In this document: one piece after another, positions 37,744 to 48,534 of the stretch
How positions within the stretch are numbered: position 1 is the stretch's first letter
Layout of the letters: the number at the start of each line of letters is the position of its first letter
Source of the DNA: Kiloniellales bacterium
GTDB lineage: Bacteria; Pseudomonadota; Alphaproteobacteria; Kiloniellales; JAKSBE01
Direction: 5' to 3'
NCBI GenBank assembly: GCA_030066685.1
Contig: JASJBF010000038.1
Location: 1-64,000, forward strand
Length of the DNA: 64,000 nt
The notes under the pieces: model-generated
What the model was told of the DNA's origin: nothing
What the model saw: the letters and a program-made list of their open reading frames with translations, nothing else
The model's database searches: none
Made by a program: the position numbers and the translations under genes

Positions 37744-38613
37744 CTACGACGGCGGGCTTTCGGCTGCCCCATCCGGCGGATCGGCATCCAAGTTTTCGTC
37801 CTCGTCTTCCAGGTCTTCCAGGAACTCGTCGGGGAACTCCGGCAAGGGGGCATCCCCGGGCGTCGCTTCGCGAATCTCGGCCTGCCGGTTCTGGTACCAG
37901 AGGCTGCGCACGCGGGCGTAGAAGTCCACCGAATCGCGGCGCAAGTCGTCGACGGCTTCGATATTTCGCGCTCTGACGTCGATGCCGTTGGCGATGGTCT
38001 TGGCGAGGCTGGCGGTCCGGGCCGCGTCGTACTTGCCTTCGATGCCGGCGAGCTCGAAGCCGCCGAGGTAGGTCAGCGGGTCGAAGAAGATGTCGACGAA
38101 CTTGCCGGTGGCATCCCGGGCGCTGCTGGGGCCGAGGATCGGAAGCACGAGGTAGAAGCCCGGGTCGACTCCCCAAACGCCGAGGGTCTGGCCGAAATCC
38201 TTGCTGCGATAGGGATAACCGCTGTCGGCCGCGATGTCGAAGAGCCCGCCGACACCGACGGTCAGGTTGATCAGCAGGCGCGCCGTGATGTTCTCCATCG
38301 CGTCGACATCGCCCTGAAGGATCGCGTTCGCCATGTTGACCGGCGTGTCGGCCAGGCGAATGATGTTGCGGATGATGTCCTGGATGAAGACCGGCATCAG
38401 TTCGCGATAGGGCTCGGCGATCGGCCGGATGAGCAGATCGTCGAGCAGGAGATTGATGTCGAAGACCGTCCTGTTCAGGGGCTCGAGCGGGTCGGAAACC
38501 TCCTCGAACCCCGGTTCCGGATCCGCCTCGTTGGGCTGGGACGCGCAAGCGCCCAGCGAAGCTGCGAGGATCGCAGCGACCAGCAAGATTCGCCAGATTG
38601 GAATGAAGCGCAT
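37744..38613 (-). CDS. mlaA: MlaA (VacJ) outer-membrane lipoprotein
   Basis: This 289-aa lipoprotein of the Mla system removes misplaced phospholipids from the outer leaflet of the outer membrane. The lipobox is LGAC, with Cys near residue 23. Family phrases are DPLEPLNRTVFDINLLLDDL, VNMANAILQGDVDAMENITA, DFGQTLGVWGVDPGFYLVLP and FVDIFFDPLTYL. An acidic C-terminal tail (EFLEDLEDEDENLDADPP) is lineage-specific. The ATG at 38613 has GAGGAGG upstream; a longer frame to 38817 lacks a signal and was rejected. It is followed by mlaC, a common alphaproteobacterial pairing. Confidence 0.92.
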   Translation of the reverse strand: MRFIPIWRILLVAAILAASLGACASQPNEADPEPGFEEVSDPLEPLNRTVFDINLLLDDLLIRPIAEPYRELMPVFIQDIIRNIIRLADTPVNMANAILQGDVDAMENITARLLINLTVGVGGLFDIAADSGYPYRSKDFGQTLGVWGVDPGFYLVLPILGPSSARDATGKFVDIFFDPLTYLGGFELAGIEGKYDAARTASLAKTIANGIDVRARNIEAVDDLRRDSVDFYARVRSLWYQNRQAEIREATPGDAPLPEFPDEFLEDLEDEDENLDADPPDGAAESPPS

Positions 38614-38954
38614 GGGCCTCCTCAAGTCCTTGTCATCTCTTTTTTTGCCCGCCCCAAGGCCCCAATGGGCAGATCCTTTCCGGGCGATCCCAGGCAAGCC
38701 TGCCGCCCCGGCCCCGCCGGTCTCCCTTCCTCGCGGAAAGCCTGCCCCTTCCGTCTTGCCCTTGGCAGGCTGCCCGACCGCCCCTGGAGACCCGGCAGCG
38801 CGCCATCGCCTTATCATAGTGGCGCGCGAAAGGCTAGATGGGGCTCGATTGATGGAAAAGAGACAGAGAATTGCCCTCGTGCGGCAATTCCCGGCGGACT
38901 TCCGCCCGGATTGGGCTCCGACCGGGGCGATCGGCGGCGACTTCGGGCCGGTCC
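38614..38954. other. 341-bp gene-free stretch upstream of mlaA
   Basis: No convincing gene is seen on either strand. It must hold the mlaA promoter; on the minus strand TATGAT followed by AAGG near 38810-38822 could be a -10 box, without a good -35. The rest is GC-rich with no repeat or strong hairpin that I noticed. Confidence 0.4.
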
Positions 38955-39899
38955 TCAGGCCCCCGGCGCCGGCCCTGCCGTGGCCCGGCGATAGAGCGGC
39001 GACAGCGCCGCCGGCAGCATGTACATGGGCAGCTGCGCCAGGGCGAAGAACAGGAAGACGTCGAAATCGCTGTCCGGCGGCAGGGCGGCCATCAGCAAGC
39101 CCATGTTGCAGTTGCCGGAGGCCAGGCCGATGGTCAGGGCGGCGCGACGCCCGAGCCAGAGGAAAATCAGAGCGCCCAGGGCCTGGAGCAGGGGGTTGGC
39201 GACGAAGGCGGCGGCGACCCAGAGGGCGACGATGCCGGGCCGGGCCAGCAGGGTATCGGTGACCCCGGCCATGATCGCGACGGCGAAGACGACCATGACG
39301 ACCACGACCAGGCCGTCAATGTGACGGGCACGGCTGGCCAGCCAGGCCGGCGAGGTCAGGCGGCGCAGAACCAGCGCGCCGGCGAAGGCGAGAAAGACCA
39401 CGGCCGAGAGCCGTAAGGTGAACTCCAGGACCGAGACCTCCAGCTCCAGGCCGAGGAGCGCCAGGGCCAGCGGCGGAATGGTCAGCGGCGCCAGCAGGCT
39501 GGCAAAGAGCGTCACGACCATGATCAGCGCGCCGTCCAGGCCGAGGATGATCGCGATCGAGGTGGCGCCCAGGATCGGCGGCGCGGCGGCCATCAGCACC
39601 AGGGCGGTGGCGAGCGCCGGCGGTAGCAGGCCGAGGGGCACCACCAGGACCCAGATCAAGACCGGCGAGGCGATCAGCAGCCAGGTCGTGGCCAGGACGG
39701 CGAGGCCGGGACGCCGGGCGTAGTGCCGCAGTCCCTCCCAGTCGACCCGAAGCAGCGTGGCCAGCAGCAGGATCACGACGCAGGGGCCGAGAAGCGGGCG
39801 GGCCAGGGCGGCGAGATCGGGCAGCAGCAGGCCGAGGAAGACGCCCAGGAAGAGCGCCGGGATCGCGTTGCCGCCGAGGAACTCGAGGACCCTGACCAT
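38955..39899 (-). CDS. BASS/SBF-family sodium-dependent transporter-like protein
   Basis: This is a 314-aa integral membrane protein with about nine or ten helices. It resembles the bile acid:sodium symporter (SBF) superfamily. Evidence is the start AIPALFLGVFLGLLLPDLAA, the ALVLMAAAPPILGATSIAI crossover-like stretch near residue 100, and the second-half ALTIGLASGNCNMGLLMAAL near 265, equivalent to the conserved sodium-site segment of the family. It is likely a small organic-anion transporter; the substrate is not inferable. It stands alone, divergent from a thioesterase gene. Confidence 0.75.
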   Translation of the reverse strand: MVRVLEFLGGNAIPALFLGVFLGLLLPDLAALARPLLGPCVVILLLATLLRVDWEGLRHYARRPGLAVLATTWLLIASPVLIWVLVVPLGLLPPALATALVLMAAAPPILGATSIAIILGLDGALIMVVTLFASLLAPLTIPPLALALLGLELEVSVLEFTLRLSAVVFLAFAGALVLRRLTSPAWLASRARHIDGLVVVVMVVFAVAIMAGVTDTLLARPGIVALWVAAAFVANPLLQALGALIFLWLGRRAALTIGLASGNCNMGLLMAALPPDSDFDVFLFFALAQLPMYMLPAALSPLYRRATAGPAPGA

Positions 39900-40061: not shown

Positions 40062-40559
40062 ATGACCATCCCGGCGCCGCTCGAGATCTACCGCGCCGTC
40101 GTCGAGTCCGATTGGATCGACTACAACGGCCACATGAACGTGGCCTACTACGTCCTGGTCTTCGACTGGGCGACCGACGCTTTCCTGGACTTCCTCGGGC
40201 TCGACGAGGCCCTGCGCGCGGCGGCGGGGTCCTCGACCTTCTCGGTCGAGGCGCACATCACCTATCAGCGCGAGGTCGTCGAGGGCGATCCCCTGCGCTT
40301 CACGACCCAGCTGCTCGGCTACGACGAAAAACGGATCCACTATCTGCATCGGATGTATCACGCCGAGGCGGGCTTCCTGGCCTCGACGATCGAATGGATG
40401 ACCTTGCACGTCGACCTCAAGGCCCGCAAGGTCGGGCCGATGCCGGCGCAGATCCAGGCGCGGCTGGCCCAGGTCATGGCGAGCCATGCTGCCTTGCCCT
40501 GGCCCGAGGAGGCGGGACGGATGATCCGCCGTCCGACCGCTCTGGTTCCGGGCGCCTGA
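40062..40559 (+). CDS. Hotdog-fold acyl-CoA thioesterase
   Basis: This is a 165-aa single-hotdog thioesterase of the 4HBT/FcbC type. The active-site region is SDWIDYNGHMNVAYYVLVFD (about residues 16-35), where family members have DxxGHxNxxxY. HITYQREVVEGDPLRFTTQL near 65 and HRMYHAEAGFLASTIEWMTL near 95 complete the fold. The sequence resembles the group that includes betainyl-CoA thioesterase of carnitine breakdown, but no carnitine genes are nearby. It is 25 bp upstream of a ClC channel gene on the same strand. Confidence 0.85.
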   Translation: MTIPAPLEIYRAVVESDWIDYNGHMNVAYYVLVFDWATDAFLDFLGLDEALRAAAGSSTFSVEAHITYQREVVEGDPLRFTTQLLGYDEKRIHYLHRMYHAEAGFLASTIEWMTLHVDLKARKVGPMPAQIQARLAQVMASHAALPWPEEAGRMIRRPTALVPGA

Positions 40560-40584: not shown

Positions 40585-42378
40585 ATGTCCGAAGCCTCCA
40601 AGCCGGGCCGGCCGTCCTGGAAGTCGATCTTCCGCGGGCTCAAGCGCTTCGGGCGCAACGACCTCGTCGTGCTCTCCACCCTGGCGGTGGTCGTCGGCGC
40701 GGCCGGCGGCGGCGCGGCGATCGTGTTCCGGCTCGGAATCGATTTCTTCCAGCGCGTCTTCTTCGGCGTCGATCCCGATTTCCTCACCCGGCTGGCGCCG
40801 GAACTGCCGTTCTGGCACCTCCTGCTGGTGCCGAGCCTCGGCGGACTGGCGATCGGCCTTCTCGTCTACTACGTCATGCCCGGGCGCCGGCCCTTGGGGG
40901 TCGCCCAGGTGATCGAGGCCAGCGCGCTGCGCGGCGGCCGGATGTCGTTGAAGAACGGGCTCAGCGCGGCCTTCGTCAGCGCCGCCTCGATCGGAGTCGG
41001 GGCCTCGGTCGGCCGCGAGGGCCCGGTCGTCCATCTCGGGGCCTGCCTGGGCGGCTGGCTCGCCAGGCGGCTGCAGCTCGGCCGGGTGCTTTCGCGCACG
41101 CTTCTGGGTTGCGGCGTCGCCGCAGCGGTGGCGGCCTCGTTCAACGCGCCCATCGCCGGCGTCTTCTTCGCCCTCGAGGTCGTCATCGGCCACTACGCGC
41201 TTTCGGCCTTCGCGCCCATCGTCATCGCCGGGGTCACGGGAACCATCGTCAGCCGCATGTACTTCGGCGACTTTCCGGCCTTCATCCTGCCGGAATCGCG
41301 GGAGATCGCGTCCTTCCTGGAGTTCCCGGCCTTCGCCATGCTCGGCGTCGCCAGTGCCGTCGCCGCCATCGTGCTGATGCGCTCCGTCATGCTGACCGAG
41401 GACATCTGGTCCCGGGTCCCGGTCCCGTCCTGGGCGCGGCCCGCCCTCGCCGGGCTTCTCCTCGGCCTGATCGCGCTCGGCTTCCCGCAAGTCCTGGGCG
41501 TCGGCTACGAGACCACCGACGCCGCGCTCTCGGAGCGGCTCGATCTGCAGATCCTGATCGCCCTCATGGTGGTCAAGGGCGCGGCCACGGCGCTCTGCCT
41601 GGGCAGCGGATTCGGCGGCGGCATCTTCTCGCCGTCCCTCTACATAGGGGCCATGCTAGGCGGCGCCTTCGGCATCGTCGCGACCTCGGTCTTCCCCCAG
41701 CTGTCCTCGGGGCACGGCGCCTACACCGTGGTCGGCATGGGCGCGGTCGCCGGGGCGGTCCTGGGCGCGCCCATCTCGACCATCCTGATCGTCTTCGAGA
41801 TGACCGGCGACTATTCCCTGACCATCGCGGTGATGATCGCGACGGTCATCGCCAGCGTGATCACCCAGCAGGTTCACGGCCGCTCCTTCTTCGTCTGGCA
41901 GCTGGAGCGGCGGGGGATCACGATCAAGGGCGGGCAGGAGATCAGCCTGCTGCGCACCATCACCATCGACGGCTTCACCGACAAGCGTTTCGAGACCGTC
42001 GCGGCGCAGGCCCCTCTGGCCCAGGTCCGCGAGCGCCTGTCCAGGGCGCCCTGGGGCGAGCTCTTCGTCGTCGACCCCGAAGGGCACCTGGTCGGCACCA
42101 TCACCTTTTCGGACCTGGCCGACGCCGCCTTCGACACCAGCCGCGACGAGGCCTTGGTCGCCCTCGACGTCGCCCGGCAGCATCCGACGGTGCTGCAGGT
42201 CGGCGACGATCTGGAAGCGGCCATCAAGGTCTACGGCGCCTCGGGCGAGGTCCACGTGCCGGTGGTCGATTCGATCGAGGAGATGAAGCTTCTCGGGGTG
42301 GTGCACGAGCATGAGGTCATGCTCGCCTACCACCGGGCCCTGCAGCAGGCCCGGGCCGAGGAGCGCGGCGAGCTCTAG
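40585..42378 (+). CDS. ClC-family chloride channel/antiporter with CBS domains
   Basis: This is a 597-aa inner-membrane ClC protein with about ten visible hydrophobic segments. The gating-glutamate motif is GREGPVVHLGA (about residue 147). Other family phrases are AASFNAPIAGVFFALEVVIG near 180 and GGGIFSPSLYIGAMLGGAFG near 350. Residues about 460-590 form two CBS domains (APLAQVRERLSRAPWGELFV and HPTVLQVGDDLEAAIKVYG) that can bind adenine nucleotides. The anion-site GSGIP motif is not clear at its usual place (MPGRRPLGVAQ), so selectivity is uncertain. It is probably co-transcribed with the thioesterase. Confidence 0.92.
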   Translation: MSEASKPGRPSWKSIFRGLKRFGRNDLVVLSTLAVVVGAAGGGAAIVFRLGIDFFQRVFFGVDPDFLTRLAPELPFWHLLLVPSLGGLAIGLLVYYVMPGRRPLGVAQVIEASALRGGRMSLKNGLSAAFVSAASIGVGASVGREGPVVHLGACLGGWLARRLQLGRVLSRTLLGCGVAAAVAASFNAPIAGVFFALEVVIGHYALSAFAPIVIAGVTGTIVSRMYFGDFPAFILPESREIASFLEFPAFAMLGVASAVAAIVLMRSVMLTEDIWSRVPVPSWARPALAGLLLGLIALGFPQVLGVGYETTDAALSERLDLQILIALMVVKGAATALCLGSGFGGGIFSPSLYIGAMLGGAFGIVATSVFPQLSSGHGAYTVVGMGAVAGAVLGAPISTILIVFEMTGDYSLTIAVMIATVIASVITQQVHGRSFFVWQLERRGITIKGGQEISLLRTITIDGFTDKRFETVAAQAPLAQVRERLSRAPWGELFVVDPEGHLVGTITFSDLADAAFDTSRDEALVALDVARQHPTVLQVGDDLEAAIKVYGASGEVHVPVVDSIEEMKLLGVVHEHEVMLAYHRALQQARAEERGEL

Positions 42379-42385
42379 TGGTGCT

Positions 42386-43417
42386 TCAGTAAGTCGGCGC
42401 CAGCTTCAGCCAGTCGTAGCGGTCGCCGGAGGTGACGGTGACCGGCCGGATGCCGCCCGGGCTGACCAGGGTCAGGGGCACCTTTGCGCCGGCATTCCCC
42501 AGCGCCCAGATGGCACGGTAGAACTCGGCCAGGGTGGCCACCGGCTCGCCGGCAACCTCTGCGATCACGTCGTTCGCCTTGACCCCGGCCTGCGAGGCCG
42601 GACCGCCCGGCGCAACCCGGGTGACGATGACGTGGCCCCGGAACTCTTCGCTGTAGACCCCCAGCCAGGGCCGCGATGTGGCCAGGCCGCGGCCTTTCTC
42701 AAGCAGGTCGGTGTAGATCGGCCGCAGGGCGTCGATGGGCACGAACATGTTGCCCGGCCGCGCCTCGTCCTCCACGGCCTCGCCGACGATCAGCGAGCCG
42801 ATTCCGACCAGGTTGCCCTCGCGGGTGATCAAGGCGGCCCCGCCGAAGCTGGGATGCGGCGGCGCGGTGAAGATGGCCTCCGGCAGGAGGTATTCCCAAT
42901 AGCCGGCGAAGGTCCGCCGCGAGACGACCTTGGCGGGCACGATCTGCGGCGGGCTCCCGTAGCCGACAGCGAGCACCTGGGCCTCTTCCCGCAGCTCAGC
43001 GGACTCGCCCAGCTCGATGGGCGGCACTCCGAGAGGCGAAAGCGCCCGCAGAAGGCCGAAGCCGGTCTCGTAGTCGTAGGCCACGATGTCGGCCGGCACC
43101 CGTCTGTCGCCGGGCAGCAGAACCTCCACCTGGTCGGCTTCCATGATCAGATAGCCGATGGTCAGCACCAGGTCGCCGTCGCCGATCACGACGCCGGAGC
43201 CCTCCCGTTCGGTGCCGAGGTGCTCCGCGGTCCGGGCGTCCGCCGGCACCCTCGCGGCGACGCCGACGACCGCATCGATCGGACTGGACTGCGAAGCCTC
43301 CTCGGCGCTCGCGTCCGCGATCGCAAAGGGCAGGAGCCCAACCGCAAGGACGACGACGGCGAAGGCCGCTACCACCGCGCGCGAGAGTCCTGCCCTGGCT
43401 CTGAAAGACTCGGTCAT
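42386..43417 (-). CDS. HtrA-like PDZ protein with all catalytic residues lost (pseudoprotease)
   Basis: This 343-aa exported protein has a signal or anchor helix (about 13-34), a trypsin-like domain (about 60-235) and one PDZ domain (about 250-330, RVAPGGPASQAGVKANDVIA). In active HtrA/Deg proteins the triad lies in TNNHVV, D..TDLALL and GNSGGPL. Here the aligned stretches are LTIGYLI (Tyr89 for His), DYETGFGLL (Gly119 for Asp) and PSFGGAAL (Phe191 for Ser). The framework is otherwise intact, for example GSGVVIGDGDLVLT and GNLVGIGSLIVGEAV. It should be a non-catalytic periplasmic or membrane scaffold or sensor. A near-consensus promoter lies so close that the mRNA may be leaderless. Confidence 0.85.
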   Translation of the reverse strand: MTESFRARAGLSRAVVAAFAVVVLAVGLLPFAIADASAEEASQSSPIDAVVGVAARVPADARTAEHLGTEREGSGVVIGDGDLVLTIGYLIMEADQVEVLLPGDRRVPADIVAYDYETGFGLLRALSPLGVPPIELGESAELREEAQVLAVGYGSPPQIVPAKVVSRRTFAGYWEYLLPEAIFTAPPHPSFGGAALITREGNLVGIGSLIVGEAVEDEARPGNMFVPIDALRPIYTDLLEKGRGLATSRPWLGVYSEEFRGHVIVTRVAPGGPASQAGVKANDVIAEVAGEPVATLAEFYRAIWALGNAGAKVPLTLVSPGGIRPVTVTSGDRYDWLKLAPTY

Positions 43418-43423
43418 AATAAA

Positions 43424-43452
43424 GATATAATTCTAGCATGCTTCGTGTGCAA
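43424..43452 (-). promoter_or_regulatory. Candidate sigma-70 promoter giving a leaderless HtrA-like mRNA
   Basis: Read on the minus strand: TTGCAC (43452-43447), exactly 17 bp, TATATC (43429-43424). Transcription would begin about 7 bases on, at or next to the ATG at 43417. No ribosome site precedes that ATG. An alternative -10, TAGAAT (43435-43430), would leave only a few leader bases. Confidence 0.5.
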
Positions 43453-43495
43453 ATGACATCGAAGATGCCCCGTGGCCCTTGGATTCCGCGGGGTT

Positions 43496-44656
43496 TCAGT
43501 CTTCGAGCAGGTTACCGTCGCTTCGGTGCGGCAGGGGTTTGGTGCCGACGACCTTCGCGATCGAGGTGCCGGGCGTGACGTAGAACTGGACGTGGCGGGA
43601 CAGCACCAGGCCATCGGTGTGGGCCACGACCGGGGTCCGCGCCGCCTCGGGCTCGGCCGCCGGATCGATCACCTCCGCGACGACATCGCCCTCCCTGACG
43701 CGCTCGCCCAGGGCGACCTTGTAGGCCAGGACGCCGGGCGCCGGGGCGCGCAGCACGTCGACGGCCTCCAGGGGGCTCGCCTCGCAGAGCGGCTCCGGCA
43801 GGGGGCCGGGATCGCCGGCGAGGAAGCCGCGGCGCTGCAGGATGCGGAAAAGCGCCGCCGCGTCGGCCGCCGCCAGCTCGTCCGAAACGTCGCCGCGCCC
43901 ACGCAGCTCGACCGTGGCGGAGAGGCAGGCCGCCGGGATGGGATGCTCCGGGAAACGTCCGGCGAGCTTGGTCCAGGGCGTGGAGAAAGCCTCGTCGAAG
44001 GAGCCGCCGCCGGAATCCGCCGCCAGCAACGCGGCCCGGCAGCCCAGCTCGGCGACGATATCCCGCGCCGCCGGCCAGTGCGCCGGGATCAGGAAGATGT
44101 GCATCAGGGCTTCCAGGTCGCAATGCAGGTCCAGCACCAGGTCGGAATCGGCCGCCTCCTGGGCCAGGCGCAGCCGGTGGTCGATCAGCTCGGCGCCGAG
44201 CTGATCCGGCGGCAGGGCCTCGCGCCGGCCGGCGACGATGGCCCGCAGGGCGGCGCGGATCGCTTCGACGTTCTTCTCCGGGTCCGGCCCGAGTCCCTTG
44301 GCGACGGCCTCGGCGACCGGCTCGCTGACGTCGAGCCAGTTGCGGTTGAAGTTGCCGCCGCCGCCCAGGTGTTGGCGGCCGAGGTGATAGCCGTTCACGT
44401 TCTGATCCAGGCCGATCGGGTTGGCGTAAGGCAGGATCACGATCTGGCCGGTGATCTCGCCCCGGGCGGCGGCCGCGTCCAGAAGCCGGATCAGGTGATG
44501 CAGGACCAGGAGGCCCGGCGTCTCGTCGGCGTGCAGGGCGGCCTGGAGATAGGCCTTGGGCCGCGTCTCAGGCGCGCCGTAGCGGTGCAGGGTCAGCGTG
44601 CGCTGGGTGCCCGTGGCGCCGGGCAGCAGCGCCTGGCGTTCGGTCGTCCTGGTCAC
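43496..44656 (-). CDS. Succinylglutamate desuccinylase/aspartoacylase-family zinc hydrolase
   Basis: This 386-aa M14-type zinc amidohydrolase belongs to the AstE/AspA family, which deacylates N-acyl amino acids or similar compounds. Zinc ligands are His42 and Glu45 (ALHADETPG) and the His of LVLDLHCDLEALMH (about 177). PYANPIGLDQNVNGYHLGRQ and GNFNRNWLD are family-typical. The C-terminal third (about 300-386, APAPGVLAYKVALGERVREG) is a biotinyl-lipoyl-like beta domain seen in this subgroup. The GTG start lies one base after the stop of the aminopeptidase gene, so both form one operon. Substrate unknown; a peptide- or amino-acid-derived compound fits. Confidence 0.87.
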   Translation of the reverse strand: MTRTTERQALLPGATGTQRTLTLHRYGAPETRPKAYLQAALHADETPGLLVLHHLIRLLDAAAARGEITGQIVILPYANPIGLDQNVNGYHLGRQHLGGGGNFNRNWLDVSEPVAEAVAKGLGPDPEKNVEAIRAALRAIVAGRREALPPDQLGAELIDHRLRLAQEAADSDLVLDLHCDLEALMHIFLIPAHWPAARDIVAELGCRAALLAADSGGGSFDEAFSTPWTKLAGRFPEHPIPAACLSATVELRGRGDVSDELAAADAAALFRILQRRGFLAGDPGPLPEPLCEASPLEAVDVLRAPAPGVLAYKVALGERVREGDVVAEVIDPAAEPEAARTPVVAHTDGLVLSRHVQFYVTPGTSIAKVVGTKPLPHRSDGNLLED

Positions 44657-44657
44657 G

Positions 44658-46715
44658 TCAACGCGCTCCGGCGAGGGGAGCCGTCGCGGCCGCCAGCCAG
44701 GCTGCGGTTTCCGGCTCGAGCTGCGGGGTCAGGGCCTCCCGGACGCGGGTGTGGTAGGCGTCCAGCCAGGCGACCTCGGCATCGTCGAGAAGCCGTCCGT
44801 CGATCAGGTTCCGGTCGATGGGGGCGAGGGTCAGGGTCTCGAAGCCCAGGATCTCCCGCTCGCTCTCCGGTGGCGCGCTCAGCGGCACCACCGTCACCAG
44901 GTTCTCGATGCGGATGCCGTAGGCGCCTTCCTTGTAGTAGCCGGGCTCGTTGGAGACGATCATCCCGGGTTCCAGCGGCACCGGGTTCGGCGCCTTGGAG
45001 ATCCGCTGCGGGCCTTCGTGGACCGAAAGATAGCTGCCGACACCGTGGCCGGTGCCGTGGTCGAAGTCGAGCCCGGCCTCCCAGAGGGGCCGCCGCGCCA
45101 GGGTGTCGAGCTGGCTCCCGGTGGTGCCCTTGGGAAAGCGCGCCGTGGCGATGGCGATGTGGCCCTTGAGCACGCGGGTGAAGCGCTCGCGCATCTCCTC
45201 GCTCGGCGCGCCGACCGCCAGGGTGCGCGTGACGTCGGTCGTGCCGTCCGGGTATTGGGCGCCGGAATCGACCAGGTAGAGCTCGCCGGCGCCGAGGGCC
45301 CGGTTGCTCGTCTCGTCGACCCGGTAGTGCACGATGGCGCCGTTGGGGCCCGCCCCGGAGATGGTGTCGAAGGACAGATCGCGGAACTCCTCGTTCCGGC
45401 GCCGGAAGGCGGCCAGGCGCTCGGCCGCCTCGGTCTCGGTCACCGGGTCCCTGCCGGCCCGGGCCGGTGCCTCGGCCGCCAGCCAGGCGAGAAACCGGGT
45501 CACGGCGGCCCCGTCGCGCAGGTGGGCGGCGCGGGCGCCGGCGATCTCGACCTCGTTCTTGCGCGCCTTGGGCAGCAGGCAGGGGTCGGGACCGGGGATC
45601 ACCTTCGCGCCGCTCGACCTGAGGCGCTCGAAGGCCCAGTCCGGGGCCGAGGCCGGGTCGAGGGTGACCTTGGCGCCGGCCTTGCCCAAGGCCTCCAGGG
45701 CCGGGCCGAAGACCTCTGGGGGCTCGACGGCCACCGTATTGCCCAGATGCCGGCGCGTCGCGGTGGTCAGCTTGCGGTCGTCGATGTACCAGGCCGTGCC
45801 GCCGTCGGCCCGCAGGATCGCGAAGGACAGGGCAAAAGGGGTGTGGGTGACGTCGCCGCCGCGGACGTTGAGCAGCCAGGCGATGGAGTCCGGCAGGGTC
45901 AGGACCGCCGCCTCGGCGCCGCGGCCTTCGATCTCGGCGCCGATCTGCGCCCGCTTCTCGGCCGTGGCCTGCCCGGCGTAGGCCAGGTCGTGGGGCCGGA
46001 CGGGGGCCAGCGGCGGGGCCGGCTGGCCGCGCCAGACCGCGTCCAGGGGATTGCCGTCGCAGGGCACCAGGCTGGCGCCGGCCTTCTCGGCGGCGGCCCG
46101 CAGGCCCTTGACCTGGGACTCGCTGTGCAGCCAGGGATCGTAGCCGAGCTTCTCGCCGGCCTTCAGGTTCTCGGCGATCCAGTCGGCGGGCGACTGTTCG
46201 GCCAGGTGAACCGGGTCGAAAAGCGCGGTGTCGACCTGCTGGCGGACCTGCAGGGTGTAGCGGCCGTCGACGAAAACCGCGGCCTTCTCGGCCAGGACCA
46301 GCGCGGCGCCGGCCGAGCCGGTGAAGCCGGTCAGCCAGGCAAGCCGCTGGGCGCGGGCCGGCACGTATTCGCCCTGGTGCTCGTCGCTGCGCGGCACCAG
46401 GAAGCCCTGCAGGCCGCGGTGCGCGAGCTCCGCCCTGAGGTCCGCCAGGCGGGCGGCGTGGTCCGCCCCCGCGCCCAGGCCGTCGTTAAGGCCGGCGGCC
46501 AGGTCCCGCTTCAGGGCCGCCAGCTGGCGCGCGAGCTCGGGACTGCGCCCTTCCGCCACAAGGTCCATCCAGGCTTCGGGGTTTTCGGCCTCGGGGGCGG
46601 CCAGGACCCCGGCGAGGAGGCTGCGGACGGCGGCCGCGTCCCGGTCGGCGCCGGCGGCGGTCAGCAGGCGATCGAGCTCGGCGTCTCCGGCGTAGGTCGG
46701 GGCTGAATCCGGCAC
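44658..46715 (-). CDS. Xaa-Pro aminopeptidase (M24B)
   Basis: This 685-aa cytoplasmic metallopeptidase removes N-terminal residues before proline. It has two creatinase-like N-terminal domains (FLVPRSDEHQGEYVPARAQR near 105) and a pita-bread catalytic domain. Metal ligands are two Asp (LVDSGAQYPDGTTDVTRT), the His of DHGTGHGVGSYLSVHEG and two Glu (SNEPGYYKEGAYGIRIENL). Common bacterial forms are about 600 aa. Here about 85 extra N-terminal residues (helical, Ala/Asp/Glu-rich) precede the first domain. An in-frame internal start may exist, but no ribosome site there is convincing. It is coupled to the M14 hydrolase gene. Confidence 0.92.
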   Translation of the reverse strand: MPDSAPTYAGDAELDRLLTAAGADRDAAAVRSLLAGVLAAPEAENPEAWMDLVAEGRSPELARQLAALKRDLAAGLNDGLGAGADHAARLADLRAELAHRGLQGFLVPRSDEHQGEYVPARAQRLAWLTGFTGSAGAALVLAEKAAVFVDGRYTLQVRQQVDTALFDPVHLAEQSPADWIAENLKAGEKLGYDPWLHSESQVKGLRAAAEKAGASLVPCDGNPLDAVWRGQPAPPLAPVRPHDLAYAGQATAEKRAQIGAEIEGRGAEAAVLTLPDSIAWLLNVRGGDVTHTPFALSFAILRADGGTAWYIDDRKLTTATRRHLGNTVAVEPPEVFGPALEALGKAGAKVTLDPASAPDWAFERLRSSGAKVIPGPDPCLLPKARKNEVEIAGARAAHLRDGAAVTRFLAWLAAEAPARAGRDPVTETEAAERLAAFRRRNEEFRDLSFDTISGAGPNGAIVHYRVDETSNRALGAGELYLVDSGAQYPDGTTDVTRTLAVGAPSEEMRERFTRVLKGHIAIATARFPKGTTGSQLDTLARRPLWEAGLDFDHGTGHGVGSYLSVHEGPQRISKAPNPVPLEPGMIVSNEPGYYKEGAYGIRIENLVTVVPLSAPPESEREILGFETLTLAPIDRNLIDGRLLDDAEVAWLDAYHTRVREALTPQLEPETAAWLAAATAPLAGAR

Positions 46716-47658: not shown

Positions 47659-48534
47659 TCAGCGGCGCAGGACCAGGGTCGACCACTCGGCAAGGCGCAA
47701 CCGTCGGACGAGGCGTAGCTTCTGGGCCCGGTGCGGGTTCAGCACCAAGCGCTCCTGCTTGACCAGCAGCCCCGAAAGGACGGCCCGTCCGCCCGGTGCC
47801 AGATGGGCGCGCAGCTCGACCGCCATCCGGGCCAGGGGCTCGGCCAGGATGTTGGCGGCGATCAGGTCGAAAGGCCCGGCCGCCCGTAGCGAAGGGTGCC
47901 GGTAGCCCTCCGAGACCAAGGGCCGAACCCACCTGCCGCACCGGTTGATCCGGGCGTTGACCCGGGCAACCGCCACGGCGGCCGGATCGTTGTCCGCCGC
48001 CAGGACCGGGCGCCGCCAGAGCCGTGCCATGGCCAGGGCCAGGATGCCCGAGCCGCAGCCCAGGTCGAGCAGGCGGCGCGGTCGGAAGCCGGCCTTGGCG
48101 AGGCCCTCCAGGGCCAGGAGGCAGCCGCGGGTGGTCTCGTGGCGGCCGGTGCCGAAGGCGACGTTGGCGTCGATCAGCAGCGGGATCGAGGCCGGCGGCG
48201 GCGGCCCGGTGACGTGGCTGCCGTGGAGGTAGAAGCGCCCGGCGCGGATCGCCGGCAGGTTGCTCTGGCTCTCCGCCACCCAGTCGGTGTCGGCCAGCGC
48301 CGCGATCCGGGTCTCCGGAACTTCCGTGCCGACGGCCTCTGCGGCGTCCACCAGACAGGCGCGCAGAACCCCCCGGTCGGGCGGCTCCTGCAGATAGACC
48401 TGAAATGGCACCAGGCCGTCGGCGCCCGGCAGACCGATCGCGAGAGCACCGCCGACCGGCTCCAGGGCGGCCTCGAAGACCGCCTGGGCCGCCGCGGGCA
48501 CCGTCAGGTCGATGCGCCAGCCGGAGCCTGCCAT
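47659..48534 (-). CDS. prmA: Ribosomal protein L11 methyltransferase
   Basis: This 291-aa AdoMet-dependent methyltransferase trimethylates ribosomal protein L11. The N-terminal substrate-binding domain (about 1-90) leads to the PrmA signature ANVAFGTGRHETTRGCLLAL near 120. The Rossmann motif follows (LLDLGCGSGILALAMARL near 155), then the catalytic DLIAANILAEPLARMA near 225, the NxLxxPL element unique to PrmA. It is 14 bp downstream of the helicase gene on the same strand, so both are likely co-transcribed. Confidence 0.93.
   Translation of the reverse strand: MAGSGWRIDLTVPAAAQAVFEAALEPVGGALAIGLPGADGLVPFQVYLQEPPDRGVLRACLVDAAEAVGTEVPETRIAALADTDWVAESQSNLPAIRAGRFYLHGSHVTGPPPPASIPLLIDANVAFGTGRHETTRGCLLALEGLAKAGFRPRRLLDLGCGSGILALAMARLWRRPVLAADNDPAAVAVARVNARINRCGRWVRPLVSEGYRHPSLRAAGPFDLIAANILAEPLARMAVELRAHLAPGGRAVLSGLLVKQERLVLNPHRAQKLRLVRRLRLAEWSTLVLRR

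Follow-up and report, generated by a model that had tools for sequence, protein, structure and literature searches.

A predicted family of HtrA-derived pseudoproteases in Alphaproteobacteria, with a lost catalytic triad and exported and apparently non-exported branches

The gene described here lies in a window of 64,000 nucleotides (the whole stretch of DNA that was analysed) from a Kiloniellales bacterium. Sequence comparison indicates that its product belongs to a family of stable pseudoproteases, descended from HtrA proteases through an ancient loss of the cutting machinery. The gene, its parts and its neighbours are listed in Table 1; an earlier note, made from the letters of the window, had placed the open reading frame exactly.

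Table 1. Positions of the pseudoprotease gene, its domains and sites, and the surrounding genes in the window.
Feature	Position	Strand	Basis or remark
HtrA-derived pseudoprotease gene	42386..43417	minus	ATG start, 343 aa; Pfam and AlphaFold2
Signal-peptide-like N-terminus, residues 1-38	43304..43417	minus	Hydrophobicity scan; helix 4-26 in the model
Pseudoprotease domain, residues ~47-241	42695..43279	minus	Trypsin_2 match 73-206; structure model
Tyr89 at the catalytic His position	43151..43153	minus	hhalign; Tyr in 173/176 distinct members, Phe in 3
Gly119 at the catalytic Asp position	43061..43063	minus	hhalign; Gly in 176/176
FAGYWEY, residues 170-176	42890..42910	minus	Trp174, Glu175 and Tyr176 in 176/176
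Ser190 (oxyanion-hole Gly position), Phe191 (Asn position), Gly192 (nucleophile Ser position)	42842..42850	minus	hhalign
PDZ domain, residues ~249-332, with carboxylate-binding loop RPWLG 249-253	42422..42673	minus	PDZ_2; loop conservation
Promoter-like site	43430..43459	minus	Consensus scan only; just upstream of the pseudoprotease gene
CLC channel gene	40585-42378	plus	Converges with the pseudoprotease gene
AstE/aspartoacylase-type M14 gene	43496-44656	minus	Upstream neighbour of the pseudoprotease gene
M24 aminopeptidase-P-type gene	44658-46715	minus	Upstream of the AstE-type gene
MlaA lipoprotein gene	37744-38817	minus	
SBF-family transporter gene	38955-39899	minus	
4HBT thioesterase gene	40062-40559	plus	
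PrmA methyltransferase gene	47659-48534	minus	

Pfam matches on the 343-aa protein are Trypsin_2 (E 1.9e-18, residues 73-206) and PDZ_2 (E 7.5e-10), with no Pfam domain beyond these two, and the chain stops just past the PDZ domain, at residue 343. The NCBIfam HtrA models match far below their cut-off (TIGR02037, 85.1 vs. 416.2 bits); among sequences with a solved structure, DegQ comes closest (4a8a, E 2.1e-15). An AlphaFold2 model made with the window protein and 55 relatives has a pLDDT of 88.1 and a pTM of 0.82, and its top Foldseek matches are DegP, DegQ and Deg1 (best E 6.4e-22, to DegP 3mh6). VIA-align against HtrA chains gives Z scores of 22-25 at rmsd 3.6-9.4, with the best Z of 25.0 to Deg1 3qo6_B (rmsd 5.9 over 283 residues); the high rmsd probably reflects a different angle between the two domains. 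Based on the model, we are confident that the HtrA fold, a trypsin-like double beta-barrel, is kept. The preserved fold and PDZ domain that the earlier note had read from the sequence are thus borne out by the model confidence, the structural alignments and the PDZ_2 match.

The genome to which the window belongs also encodes five triad-intact HtrAs, and the former catalytic positions were mapped by profile-profile alignment of the family against these five (hhalign, probability 99.9). The nucleophile region reads GNSGG in the true HtrAs vs. SFGGA in the window protein. Replacement of the entire triad, as first proposed, holds in that all three residues are absent, with Tyr89 for His and Gly119 for Asp; the serine, which had been equated with Phe191, instead corresponds to Gly192, the residue at which hhalign fixes that column. 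The oxyanion-hole glycine is lost as well (Ser190), one catalytic feature more than had been listed. We considered whether the triad might be intact under another alignment and rejected this, as MAFFT, phmmer against DegQ and hhalign all give Tyr89 and Gly119.

For the family-wide comparison, 66 relatives were fetched first, by patterns that included DYETGFGL, a pattern that covers Gly119 and biases this set at that position; profile searches of whole genomes are free of the bias. The enlarged set has 184 rows, with 141 clusters at 90% identity and 176 members that are distinct over residues 47-338 (the count without identical cores and without the fragment L051; another fragment, L066, was dropped earlier). 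Among the 34 loci added late, one gene is entered twice (as L159 and L180) and several loci resemble repeats of earlier ones, and the genome-profile matches from the phylum and order searches were fetched into the set in part.

Not one of the 176 distinct members has His at position 89 or Asp at position 119, where Tyr (rarely Phe) and Gly, respectively, are found (Table 1). Position 191 is Trp in 134 members, Phe in 32, Tyr in 7 and His in 3, position 192 is Gly in 126, Ser in 33, Ala in 11 and another residue in 6, and Gly occurs at position 190 in only 7. Gly193 is invariant in all 176, as are Trp174, Glu175 and Tyr176. The 33 members that keep Ser192, mostly as W-S-G and without His or Asp, include L021, L023, L026, L030, L031, L034, L045, L047 and L062.

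The matched stretch has no internal stops in any of the first 66 relatives. Against the two closest orthologues, the window gene has dN/dS values of 0.22 and 0.19; values are higher against farther relatives (0.28 to L003, 0.475 to L007), where synonymous changes approach saturation. Recent decay is ruled out by the lack of internal stops, dN/dS values of ~0.2 and triad loss across the 176 members, and no orthologue with an intact triad was found among the family members or, as a close relative, in the 115 class genomes searched. The earlier view of a stable pseudo-enzyme under selection therefore stands, neither alternative alignments nor orthologues having yielded a triad. A partial family match in the same order (G578:C122:7696-8490) carries two internal TAG codons and is either a broken copy or a sequence error.

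When the family profile is run against the window's own genome, the window gene scores E 2.5e-135 vs. 3.4e-25 for the best true HtrA. Across 115 Alphaproteobacteria genomes (E 1e-26), no match falls between 2.4e-98 and 1.4e-29 with one exception, a partial match at E 1.8e-38 (G064:C230:4182-4532, profile positions 16-132). These scores indicate a family that is sharply separated from the true HtrAs and forms an isolated clade. At E 1e-40, it is present in 65 of 289 genomes of the class Alphaproteobacteria, in 30 of 58 genomes of the window's order and in 28 of 299 genomes of the phylum, 27 of the latter from the window's class and one from outside it. Relatives were also recovered from MAGs labelled Gammaproteobacteria and from one labelled Desulfobacterales (L018), whose label places it outside the Pseudomonadota and for which transfer, contamination or mislabelling may account. 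The members in two MAG records titled Klebsiella pneumoniae (L041) and Asaia bogorensis (L010) group with those of uncultured proteobacterial MAGs, and the titles of the two records look doubtful.

Family members differ in their N-termini. Signal-peptide-like starts were labelled by a stretch of 10 residues without charge and a mean hydrophobicity of at least 2.1, with start codons chosen by rule. The N-terminus of the window protein is hydrophobic by this simple scan, and a putative cleavage site, Ala-Ser-Ala before Glu39, was read by eye; the sister branch has no such stretch. Of the 84 copies in the class sample, 34 start in a signal-peptide-like manner: 33 satisfy the hydrophobicity rule, and L152, which lies under the cut-off (1.95), was counted as exported on its twin-arginine-like N-terminus, RRPVLGG. 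The other copies begin with a soluble stretch, often WEIP...P or NGHKP, and an N-terminal motif of the NGH[KR] type occurs in many non-exported members (L012, L016, L021, L026, L116, L117 and L145 among them). The non-exported branch, which is apparently cytosolic, is the larger of the two and has the same dead site.

Export labels follow the phylogeny closely, with 8 changes on the tree vs. a mean of 43.4 for shuffled labels (0 of 200 shuffles as low); in this labelling, L152 and L009 still count as non-exported, and for L009 the chosen start codon probably lies too far downstream. The phylogeny was built rapidly (LG+G4, with SH-aLRT as the sole branch support and a long-branch warning for the outgroup), and 20 rows were left out of it (19 near-copies and the fragment L051). 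All 20 class genomes with two full copies are mixed, pairing an exported with a non-exported copy (19 by rule and one by the twin-arginine-like N-terminus), and the order search adds three more mixed two-copy genomes (G565, G572 and G582), for 23 of 23 overall; these counts exclude G138, whose two matches are pieces of a single gene, and G578, which has one full copy and two partial matches. Random pairing at the observed share would give 0.48 of pairs mixed, a figure that is not a proper probability since the genomes are related. The 23 of 23 pattern suggests that the gene was duplicated early and that the copies divided the compartments between them; at E 1e-40, the window's own genome has the exported form only. 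Taken further, and with slightly less than even confidence, the family may be a compartment-paired one in the Alphaproteobacteria, with exported and cytosolic branches that split early, stayed paired in many genomes and have in common one rebuilt dead cleft as well as a PDZ domain with its ligand loop, serving as matched, non-cutting peptide-recognition modules on both sides of the inner membrane.

In the window, the stop codons of the CLC and pseudoprotease genes are 7 bases apart, and the genes between 42386 and 46715 run on one strand (minus) in the order M24 aminopeptidase-P-like, AstE/aspartoacylase-like, pseudoprotease. The neighbourhood survey covered 137 of 150 loci, the family gene having been missed by gene picking in the remaining 13. 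An AstE-type gene stands immediately 5' on the same strand in 6 of these 137 loci (the window, L001, L002, L007, L008 and L131), separated from the family gene by 18-170 bases, and is also upstream, farther away, in L006 and L141; this neighbour is a feature of close relatives only and is not family-wide. Since none of the 137 loci reveals a family-wide conserved neighbour or operon, gene order being shared at clade level only, the neighbourhood offers no hint of a pathway. One promoter-like site was found in the scanned region upstream of the pseudoprotease gene (shuffle mean, 0.1), and because it lies directly 5', the gene may be transcribed alone.

Conservation within the family is concentrated at the former active site. 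The cleft segments average 3.18 bits per column, vs. 1.95 elsewhere in the pseudoprotease domain and 2.06 in the PDZ domain, and residues 170-176, at 4.4 bits, are the sole stretch above the cleft segments. Shifting the cleft mask circularly never brought the mean up to the observed value (0 of 193 shifts), the mask consisting of the segments homologous to the catalytic loops and having been drawn after the alignment was seen. Peak conservation at the catalytic loops would be expected of true HtrAs, too. The cleft residues in the family are new yet fixed, as would be expected if the site were reused and not a relic. In the PDZ domain, the [RK]PWLG loop is kept, position 249 being Arg or Lys in 179 of the 184 rows and position 253 Gly in all of them, and this retained carboxylate-binding loop leads us to prefer peptide sensing or chaperoning.

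We accordingly put at about even odds the reading that the family is a stable, non-proteolytic descendant of HtrA, acting as an adaptor or holdase through the binding of peptides or partners. The pseudoprotease would be exported to the periplasm, its PDZ domain would capture the exposed C-termini of clients or partners, and a ligand, a partner or a strand would be held uncut in the rebuilt cleft (Tyr89, Gly119, the aromatic residue at 191 and FAGYWEY); the sister branch would perform an equivalent job in the cytosol. The exported/cytosolic pairing suggests a shared role that is independent of a periplasmic protease. Of the non-enzymatic roles raised in the earlier note, peptide sensing and chaperoning are possible in view of the kept PDZ loop, and the role for which the stable pseudo-enzyme is kept is presumably non-enzymatic, as proposed. 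Regulation of a DegP-type protease finds no support as a general role, as the larger branch of the family, apparently cytosolic, has no signal peptide and shows the same dead site. DegP-type HtrAs are periplasmic, and the regulator idea would suit the exported copy alone.

A related explanation is that the pseudoprotease assembles with or docks onto an active periplasmic HtrA and tunes its activity as a regulatory or dominant-negative partner. HtrAs form trimers, and the five triad-intact HtrAs in the same genome speak for such an arrangement, as does MamO, which promotes MamE-dependent processing without a triad of its own (in the portions of PMC4794232 used here). We nevertheless think it unlikely, as the larger branch without signal peptide would have a periplasmic HtrA out of reach and the recurrent neighbours include no active HtrA gene. 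Somewhat harder to uphold is a structural role in which the fold is a mere building block of a larger assembly. PflC, a triad-less HtrA homologue, serves as a lattice (according to the portions of PMC12222027 used here), and the conserved aromatic FAGYWEY could be an interface; however, no recurrent neighbour encodes an assembly, and conservation is focused on the former cleft and the ligand loop of the PDZ domain instead of extending over the whole surface.

Two further explanations would retain catalysis. Invariant polar residues such as Asp115, Glu175, Tyr176, Asn223 and Arg333 would be available if the rebuilt cleft catalysed some other chemistry through an invariant Glu, Tyr, Trp or Arg, but we recognise no known catalytic arrangement among them and no His or Cys column is conserved at 90% or more, making a different enzyme improbable. 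Residual protease activity through some substitute mechanism, in the 33 of 176 members with Ser192 if not more widely, deserves very little credence: His and Asp are absent from all members, the oxyanion position has Gly in only 7 of 176, and the window protein itself has Gly192.

The family matches Trypsin_2 and, below cut-off, the NCBIfam HtrA models, and its members are easily misread as HtrA proteases, although they cannot be conventional ones. Like HtrA, DegP, DegQ and DegS (S1C; TIGR02037, TIGR02038), they can have a signal-peptide-like start, and they have a double barrel and a C-terminal PDZ domain with a carboxylate-binding loop; unlike them, they lack the triad and the oxyanion glycine, score below the NCBIfam cut-offs and form an isolated clade. 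A pseudoprotease family that is widespread and carries a new, invariant signature would clearly exemplify the reuse of an enzyme fold for another task.

Inactive homologues of serine proteases have been recorded before. A 2008 survey of 91 genomes counted 966 serine proteases, 42 of them putative inactive homologues (PMC2605481); these 42 may include members of the present family, although the portions of that paper used here describe no family like it. Our search of the open-licence PMC literature, in which absence is unproven, found no paper on this pseudoprotease family, and the motif GYWEYL gave no match there. MamO of magnetotactic bacteria is an HtrA pseudoprotease needed for MamE-dependent proteolysis and, in the portions of PMC4794232 used here, has a di-histidine metal site and a C-terminal transporter domain, whereas the window protein ends just after its PDZ domain and the family has no conserved His pair. 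No His column reaches 90% conservation and His188 alone exceeds 70%, and a MamO-like metal site was rejected for lack of such a pair. PflC of Campylobacter jejuni, a periplasmic protein of the flagellar medial disk, is likewise an HtrA homologue lacking the triad; as described in the portions of PMC12222027 used here, it has two PDZ-like domains rather than the single PDZ of the family, which, judged by gene neighbourhood alone, has no recurrent flagellar neighbours. HtrA pseudoproteases are thus known as a type from MamO and PflC, and what is distinctive here is a signature of the family's own together with an unusual pairing of exported and non-exported forms.
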